Origin: an uncultured Mucispirillum sp.
Lineage (GTDB): Bacteria > Chrysiogenota > Deferribacteres > Deferribacterales > Mucispirillaceae
Length of the DNA: 64,000 bases
Reading direction: 5' to 3'
Assembly (NCBI GenBank): GCA_944324465.1
Contig: CALUWI010000002.1
Span: 62,001-126,000, forward strand
Every line of letters begins with the position of its first letter. The stretch's first letter is position 1. The notes under the pieces were generated by a model. The model searched no databases, was not told the DNA's origin, and saw only the letters and a list, made by a program, of their open reading frames with translations. Both the position numbers and the translations under genes were made by a program. This document shows positions 57,759-59,638 of this stretch, one piece after another.

Positions 57759-57989
57759 TTATTTTTTGCTGTCATTTTCTATTCTGCTTTCATATTCAGA
57801 TAAATATTCTCTTGCTTTGCTGCATAAATGTTCAGGCACAGTAAGTTCTACCATACCATCTTTTAAATGCTCTAAAGCCTTGGGAACAACAACATACCCC
57901 TTGATTACAGCAGGGATACCTTTTGACATTAAATATGATGATGCTTTATCTGCAGCTTTTCTGCTTTTATATTCTCTAATCTTTATCAT
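57759..57989 (-). CDS. Small DUF2007-type protein
   Basis: 76 residues from the ATG at 57989. MIKIREYKSRKAADKASSYLMSKGIPAVI follows the short ferredoxin-like DUF2007 pattern (two beta strands around a helix, then VPxxxxxxA...L). The frame extends to 58073, but the extra 28 residues are an unlikely, hydrophobic and AT-encoded prefix without ribosome site. It is 11 bases upstream of the NlpC/P60 gene start, so cotranscription is probable. Function of the family is unknown. Confidence 0.6.
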   Translation of the reverse strand: MIKIREYKSRKAADKASSYLMSKGIPAVIKGYVVVPKALEHLKDGMVELTVPEHLCSKAREYLSEYESRIENDSKK

Positions 57990-58106
57990 ATCTAGCCATA
58001 ATATATTATTTTCGGCAAAATGCAATAAAAAATAAGAAAAAAATTTTATTCTTTTATATTCATTATTAATCATTTATAAATAAAATCTAATGAACTGCTC
58101 TTACAT

Positions 58107-58290
58107 TTTATCCAATGATTTTGTGGATAACCTGTGGATAACTTTTTACTATAATAAGCCTTAAAACTATTGATAATTCAATAATATATATTTTTATTTA
58201 TATTTATCAATAAGTTATAAAAAAGTATTGATATATAAGGCAAAACCGTTGTCAAGCATTTTTTTTAAAATTAAATTGTGATTAAGCTGT
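58107..58290. other. DnaA-box cluster with AT-rich stretch, candidate replication-origin-like or DnaA-binding region
   Basis: Three perfect DnaA boxes in one orientation: TGTGGATAA at 58122-58130, 58133-58141 and 58278-58286, plus a degenerate TTATCCAAT at 58107-58115. The first two are 11 bases apart, about one helical turn. Between boxes two and three lie about 135 bases of almost pure A/T with little GC, as in an unwinding element. The region belongs to a 485-base gap without genes. dnaA, dnaN and other origin-linked genes are not in this window. Confidence 0.5.
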
Positions 58291-58342
58291 GGATAACTTC
58301 TGGATATATTGATTATTTTTGCTGATTTTACAAGCTCTTTAC

Positions 58343-58369
58343 TATGCTGCTTATTTTTTAAGCAGCATA
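58343..58369. terminator. Hairpin between DnaA boxes and MFS gene
   Basis: TATGCTGCTTA (58343-58353) pairs perfectly with TAAGCAGCATA (58359-58369), five-base loop, then TTTTATAC. Could be a terminator or a structural element of the DnaA-box region. Confidence 0.5.
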
Positions 58370-58418
58370 TTTTATACAAAATTTTTTTATTTTTCCCATA
58401 ATACAGGTGCTGAAAATA

Positions 58419-58465
58419 TTGACAAAGTCATATTTTTAATATATTAAATCAATTCTTATGAATTG
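58419..58465 (+). promoter_or_regulatory. Promoter and operator-like palindrome of the MFS gene
   Basis: TTGACA (58419-58424) and TATTAA (58442-58447), 17-base spacing. CAATTC-TTAT-GAATTG (58450-58465) is a perfect 6-4-6 palindrome covering the expected transcription start and reaching the Shine-Dalgarno. Confidence 0.55.
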
Positions 58466-58474
58466 GAGTTTAAT

Positions 58475-59638
58475 ATGGCTAAAAAGTTTCCTATTTTTAA
58501 TAAGTATTTTATAATACTAATGGCAGTTAATTTTTCTGTTGCTTTTTCTTACTATATTACATTTGTTACTACAACAATTTATGCAATAAATTTTCTTCAT
58601 ACATCTAATGCATTAGCAGGACTTGCAAGCGGTATATTTATTATAGGTGCATTATTTGCAAGGATTATATTTGGCTCTTATGCTGATGAGCTTTATTTAA
58701 AGCCAGTATTAATTATATTTTTACTTATTTACTTTATAACTACTCTTTTATATATATTTATAGATAAATATATTCCACTTGTAATATTAAGATTTTTTCA
58801 TGGTGTATTTTATGGAGTATCTTCCACATGCCTTGGTGTAATACTTTCCCAGAATGTGCCAGCTTCTATTCGCGGCTCTGCTATCGGCTATTACGGCTTA
58901 AGCATAGTGCTTGCCTCAGCTGCAGCACCTTTCCTTGCTATTTTATTTATACACCTTGATTTTATCACTCTTTCATTTATAACTCCTGCTGCCCTGCTTT
59001 TAATATCAGTTATACTTTCCTTCAATTTAAGAGTGAAAAAAGTAAAACATCAAAAAACTCATAAAAAGTTTGCTGTTGCAAATTACATAGAATATTCTGC
59101 ACTTCCTGTTTCATTTTTAGCATTTTTAATGACAGCAGCATATATGCCGATACTCAGCTTTATTGGCGATTATTCTTTCAGCATTAATCTTGTAGAAGCA
59201 GGCAGCTGGTTTTTTGTAGTGTATGCAGGTATCTCTATGTTTGCACGGCCTGCAAGCGGCAGACTTTTTGATAATCTTGGACATAATTTTGTTTTAATGC
59301 CTGCAATTATTATATTTATGTTTGCATTAATAATGCTTTCAGTTTCAGATAACGGTTTTTTACTGCTTTTTTCTGCACTTTTAACAGGTCTTGGCTACGG
59401 CTCATTTTTTTCCGGCGGTCAAAGTTATGCACTTTTAAATGCACCTAAAAATAAACTGGGACTTGCTACTTCTACATATTATATATTTTTAGATATAGGC
59501 GGTGGAATTGGACCATATATTTTTGGGTTTGCAGGCGAAAATTTAGGATATAAAGCAATGTATCAAATATGTGCAGGGCTTGTTTTTATTGTGCTTATTT
59601 TATACTTTTTCCTAATATTTAAAAGAAAGAAAGCATAG
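58475..59638 (+). CDS. Major facilitator superfamily transporter
   Basis: 387 residues, twelve hydrophobic segments in two halves with a charged central loop (about 190-205, LRVKKVKHQKTHKK). RIIFGSYADE after the second segment is the MFS motif A variant, and FARPASGRLFDNLGHN is its counterpart in the second half. Such two-half signatures occur in drug or metabolite exporters of the EmrB/YfcJ-like kind, but substrate is unclear. ATG 58475 with GGAG seven bases upstream; the TTG at 58463 is inside the operator. Confidence 0.85.
   Translation: MAKKFPIFNKYFIILMAVNFSVAFSYYITFVTTTIYAINFLHTSNALAGLASGIFIIGALFARIIFGSYADELYLKPVLIIFLLIYFITTLLYIFIDKYIPLVILRFFHGVFYGVSSTCLGVILSQNVPASIRGSAIGYYGLSIVLASAAAPFLAILFIHLDFITLSFITPAALLLISVILSFNLRVKKVKHQKTHKKFAVANYIEYSALPVSFLAFLMTAAYMPILSFIGDYSFSINLVEAGSWFFVVYAGISMFARPASGRLFDNLGHNFVLMPAIIIFMFALIMLSVSDNGFLLLFSALLTGLGYGSFFSGGQSYALLNAPKNKLGLATSTYYIFLDIGGGIGPYIFGFAGENLGYKAMYQICAGLVFIVLILYFFLIFKRKKA

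Follow-up and report, generated by a model that had tools for sequence, protein, structure and literature searches.

Whether a cluster of DnaA boxes that lies away from dnaA marks a displaced replication origin or a site at which DnaA itself is controlled is the question raised by a locus in a Mucispirillum metagenome assembly (G000; 2.42 Mb in 31 contigs), from a genus of the phylum Deferribacterota. The window, i.e. the whole stretch of DNA analyzed, comprises 64,000 nucleotides of contig C2 (G000:C2:62001-126000), while dnaA is carried by contig C9.

A DnaA-box cluster in a gene-free gap

The window contains three exact copies of the 9-mer TGTGGATAA, all in one direction, and no further exact copy (Table 1). 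Its composition predicts 0.79 occurrences, in line with the figure of about one per window given in the initial annotation. The 9-mer is not simply common in this organism, since the whole genome contains 48 copies in comparison with 78 of the reversed control. The three-box cluster is real and not a product of chance; computed on the congener G006, the expected number of clusters with three boxes within 175 bp is ca. 0.0004 per genome.

An exact-match search bore out the initial description of three perfect boxes, two of them in 11-bp phase, but the cluster extends over 175 bp rather than 165 bases, the strongly A/T-rich stretch is ca. 90 bp rather than 135 bases long, and the feature runs past the interval 58107-58290 first assigned to it, to about position 58381. 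The surrounding 485 bases (57990-58474) are free of genes, as had been proposed, provided that the left-hand gene starts at MIKIREY; this is also the start of its orthologues, and an upstream stop is present in several of their reading frames.

Table 1. Predicted features of the element, its second copy and the genes flanking it (window positions unless a genome is named).
Feature	Position	Strand	Basis or remark
Whole element, copy A	58107..58381	+	nhmmer profile
DnaA box 1 (predicted), TTATCCACA on minus strand	58122..58130	-	exact match
DnaA box 2 (predicted), 11 bp from box 1, same direction	58133..58141	-	exact match
Very A/T-rich spacer holding IHF site	58140..58229	.	8-13% GC
Near-consensus IHF sites in A/T-rich spacer	58163-58175, 58221-58233	-	consensus match
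Predicted IHF site TATCAATAAGTTA (consensus WATCAANNNNTTR)	58205..58217	+	zero mismatches
Motif CTTGACA-N8-GCCTTAT	58236..58256	-	also in copy B
Degenerate DnaA box TTAATCACA, 11 bp from box 3	58277..58285	-	sequence match
DnaA box 3 (predicted), same direction, 155 bp from box 2	58288..58296	-	exact match
Hairpin/palindrome CTGCTTA-N5-TAAGCAG	58343..58369	+	
Small protein gene, left neighbor of copy A	57759..57989	-	without Pfam match
MFS transporter gene, right neighbor of copy A	58475..59638	+	
Copy B, genome of the window (outside the window)	G000:C2:140354-140642		E 1e-14 (profile)
Copy B, G006	983,846-984,120		E 1e-19 (profile)

Two copies with a fixed geometry

When relatives were searched for conserved boxes, as the initial annotation had advised, the element of the window (copy A) was detected in all ten Mucispirillum genomes searched. 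A profile of the aligned gap additionally led to a second copy (copy B) in G006, G000 and G009, the G009 copy (L042) being itself one row of that profile. A strict box pattern, run over 51 genomes of the phylum, has a match in nine of the ten Mucispirillum genomes; in the tenth (G008) one box is altered, and box 3 there reads TTATCAACA. Both copies match the pattern in four of the ten (G000, G003, G006 and G009), and its reversed control gave zero matches in all genomes scanned. Beyond the genus, the pattern matches only two of the phylum genomes, G017 (G017:C103:30733-30895) and G031 (G031:C174:813-985 and G031:C175:4265-4437), from another family of the same order; these matches may represent distantly related forms of the element or separate DnaA-box clusters.

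With the boxes read forward, copy A has a box at 0, the IHF site at 79 and boxes at 155 and 166, and copy B has the same parts at 0, 79, 156 and 167 (its equivalent of the box 2 to box 3 spacing being 156 bp). These offsets are constant to within 1 bp between the two copies, whose remaining sequence has diverged. The best conserved parts over A and B are the boxes, the IHF site and the palindrome, with mean column identities of 99% for box 1 (seven A and three B copies), 97% for box 2 and 87% for the hairpin CTGCTTA-N5-TAAGCAG. Box pairs with the 11-bp spacing are found at one or both ends of the element, and the position of the degenerate box reads TTAACCACA in G003 and G006. Phased pairs are also seen in an unrelated 1.2 Mb genome (L034; G052:C2, ~965 kb), where four 11-bp phased TTATCCACA pairs in both directions lie within 200 bp and possibly constitute the oriC of that genome.

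The IHF consensus is nearly central between boxes 2 and 3, at most 4 bp off their midpoint. Seven of seven A copies have it in perfect form, as do two of the three B copies, the third (that of the window's own genome) having one mismatch, and wherever the site is perfect its offset from box 3 is 78-79 bp (the offset in G006 copy A was likewise taken from box 3). This constancy bears on the possibility that the element is a plain DnaA titration cluster, as in Bacillus subtilis or Streptomyces, in which the IHF match is incidental: the density of boxes is high, as such a cluster would have it, and G006 has 244 occurrences of the IHF consensus, but recurrence of the site at the same offset in both copies, together with the presence of genes for both IHF subunits, renders an incidental match very unlikely.

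The combination of parts is also rare. When the whole of G006 was scanned for TTWTNCACA boxes that form same-direction pairs at a distance of 140-175 bp and enclose an IHF consensus, copies A and B alone matched (ca. 0.01 matches expected), and ten simulated genomes gave zero matches. Because this architecture was defined after copy A had been seen, the fair test of it is the fit of copy B, which was found by the profile, and of Escherichia coli datA; both fit.

Two further sequences are shared by the copies. In copy B the motif of Table 1 takes the form CTTGACA-N7-GCCTTAT and lies on the opposite side of the IHF site relative to copy A; the motif has three occurrences in the whole G006 genome, two of which are those in A and B. 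The palindrome was considered as a specific operator and rejected; it is given no role here because several unrelated sites in the genome carry palindromes like it. On G000:C15, three of these are crowded into 580 bp (near 36.0-36.7 kb). The same palindrome is present in near-identical stretches at G006:C1:517120 and 1753240, each beside a repeated small gene, and this pair has the look of a mobile or plasmid-like element in two copies. The hairpin is terminator-like in copy A, as would suit a small structured RNA ending there, and has a weak or absent U-tail in copy B. A structured RNA was nevertheless rejected, as the end hairpin is the sole structure predicted across A and B and no Rfam family fits at its gathering score; with conserved units of 9 to 13 bases set at constant distances, it is hardly credible.

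Neighboring genes

The small gene to the left adjoins copy A in all ten Mucispirillum genomes (including G008, with its changed box), and this fixed adjacency also fits gene regulation, in which case the element would be an operator at which DnaA, together with IHF, governs the transcription of the small gene/NlpC operon and, from copy B, of sdhC/frdC or gltX. Promoter-like sites are present in the gap, as an operator would lead one to expect, but they number 6 versus 7.6 in shuffles and are thus not in excess, and the two copies stand beside unrelated genes, copy B lying between sdhC/frdC-like genes and gltX at 150 to 800 bases, mostly several hundred, from these. On the other side of copy A the MFS gene can be absent, its orthologue not being found in G003 and G006, both of which have an intact copy A. 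Despite the constant adjacency of the small gene, these observations leave an operator unlikely. The MFS gene is a variable neighbor in general, and in G005 is placed on another contig than copy A.

Position of the replication origin

The whole-chromosome skew was calculated for G006, a one-contig congener of 2,347,083 bases. Its cumulative GC-skew minimum, at 1,424,051, is 4-5 kb from the dnaA-dnaN-recF cluster (1,416,345-1,420,192), and parAB (1,445,030-1,446,684) is nearby; dnaA was named by family search, and dnaN, recF and parAB from reading their translations. Copy A (1,517,648-1,517,921) lies ca. 94 kb from the minimum, and the presumed origin is 94-98 kb from copy A and 436-440 kb from copy B. 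Two of three change-point models (gene-strand and whole-ORF skew) locate the origin within 1.415-1.425 Mb, with a score 8-10 log units worse for the place of copy A, whereas the model of skew at fourfold-degenerate sites is nearly flat and slightly favors 1.52-1.55 Mb, a preference too weak to place an origin. In G000, the skew falls through copy A on contig C2 without a switch, while on contig C9 it turns at 90-105 kb, beside dnaA at 84-85 kb. The dnaA-dnaN gap is 82% A/T and has conserved DnaA boxes of its own. From the skew, the change-point models, the two contigs of G000 and this A/T-rich gap with its boxes, it follows that oriC is probably at dnaA-dnaN; the placement is strong but not final, since skew is coarse and the region 1.1-1.6 Mb of G006 is noisy.

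The suggestion in the initial annotation of an oriC separated from dnaA is not supported by these data, the minimum falling beside dnaA-dnaN, the outcome that it had itself named as speaking against the suggestion. Skew by itself is not conclusive against an origin at copy A, the boxes, A/T-rich stretch and IHF site of which would then be origin parts. Copy A is the highest-scoring DnaA-box cluster of G006, it shares DnaA boxes, A/T-rich DNA and an IHF site with the oriC of E. coli, it is not distant from the presumed origin, and the codon-position model alone leans slightly towards its surroundings. It is, however, at neither the skew minimum nor a gene-strand switch, it is not single copy (copy B being a paralogue), and E. 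coli oriC gives no match to the architecture. Skew, gene strand, the position of dnaA and parAB, and copy number led to the rejection of oriC as the likeliest reading, and an origin at copy A is judged quite improbable.

Likeness to E. coli datA

Minimal datA is a segment of 183 bp, in which boxes 2, 3 and 7 have one direction and one IHF site lies between them, and where spacing matters (PMC5742627, PMC10380432). In E. coli K-12, the architecture scan matched datA, with box 2 at 0, the IHF site at 65 and box 3 at 162, and found no other match in the 50 kb around datA, in oriC, or in the 10 kb around the presumed place of DARS2. The element of Mucispirillum resembles datA in having strong same-direction boxes that, at a distance of ~160 bp, flank a single perfect IHF site, this site being in the same relative orientation and of nearly the same letters (TATCAATAGGTTA in datA, TATCAATAAGTTA/TATCAATAGTTTA in the element). 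Both are intergenic, non-coding and apart from oriC. The box spacing is 155 bp versus 162 bp in datA, and the IHF site is placed 79 bp after one box and 64 bp before the other, compared with 65 and 85 bp; among the Mucispirillum genomes these distances vary by no more than 1 bp. Beside a strong box, datA has an additional weaker one (box 7), to which a member of the element's 11-bp box pairs may correspond. In contrast to datA, the element is found in two copies, has an 11-bp phased pair of perfect boxes and belongs to another phylum, and its neighbors are unlike glyV-X-Y and queG, which flank datA.

Other DnaA-box clusters are less similar. DARS1 and DARS2 are also such clusters, and DARS2 uses IHF, but boxes I and II of DARS are arranged head to head (PMC8682772), whereas all exact or strong boxes of copy A point one way. 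The clusters of Bacillus subtilis and Streptomyces have been named as datA analogues (PMC5742627). In common with the element, they lie off oriC, where they are thought to repress untimely initiation. To our knowledge, an IHF site is no part of their description.

The datA/DDAH system requires the IHF heterodimer, for which HU is no substitute (PMC5742627), and IHF-alpha (G000, G006) and IHF-beta (G006) score above the NCBIfam cut-offs, a third protein being HU-like. As in E. coli, DnaA has R281, R285, L290 and R334 (E. coli numbering), the residues for datA-dependent ATP hydrolysis; K178 is also retained, and D269 of sensor 1 is changed to N. Zero proteins passed the curated cut-off for Hda, which was passed by only one of 14 control genomes, and the best matches to the Hda profile were DnaA itself and a protein of 347 residues; Mucispirillum may still have a divergent Hda.

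Since the box-IHF-box layout is the same as that of E. coli datA, a replication brake is probable and an origin is not. On balance, the element is probably a duplicated datA-like control locus, at which DnaA would be removed or inactivated with the aid of bending by IHF. Points that weigh against this reading are the placement of the IHF site, which differs from that in datA, the IHF mismatch in copy B of G000, the constant small-gene neighbor of copy A, the scarcity of pattern matches beyond the genus and the distance of copy B from the presumed origin in G006. The suggestion of a DnaA-binding control locus in the initial annotation thus gains support from the same-direction boxes around an IHF consensus, the datA-like layout and the paralogue. 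In the proposed mechanism, IHF, sitting near the middle of two same-direction box groups ~155 bp apart, would bend the DNA sharply and bring the groups together, and the joined groups would support a head-to-tail assembly of ATP-DnaA. Free or active DnaA would thereby be lowered after initiation through titration and possibly also, as at E. coli datA, through triggered hydrolysis of the ATP bound to DnaA. Protein binding, looping and an effect on initiation are what we infer from the DNA, and on paper the element would work like datA. It is called datA-like, and not datA itself, because its neighbors differ and do not point to common descent, and because ATP hydrolysis is only putative.

A search of the open-access literature returned nothing on point for Mucispirillum oriC or IHF, or for datA-like loci. 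A further-reaching proposal, put forward tentatively and with some doubt, is that this duplicated, IHF-bent DnaA-box element may be the main off-switch for DnaA in Mucispirillum, where no protein reached the Hda cut-off, and so a datA-type (DDAH) system outside the Proteobacteria, either ancient or a convergence on a closely similar geometry. A two-copy element of this layout in a phylum other than that of E. coli, from which datA is known, would suggest wider or repeated occurrence of bending-assisted DnaA control, and the layout itself, an IHF site enclosed by same-direction boxes with a spacing of ~155-162 bp, provides a search pattern for other genomes.
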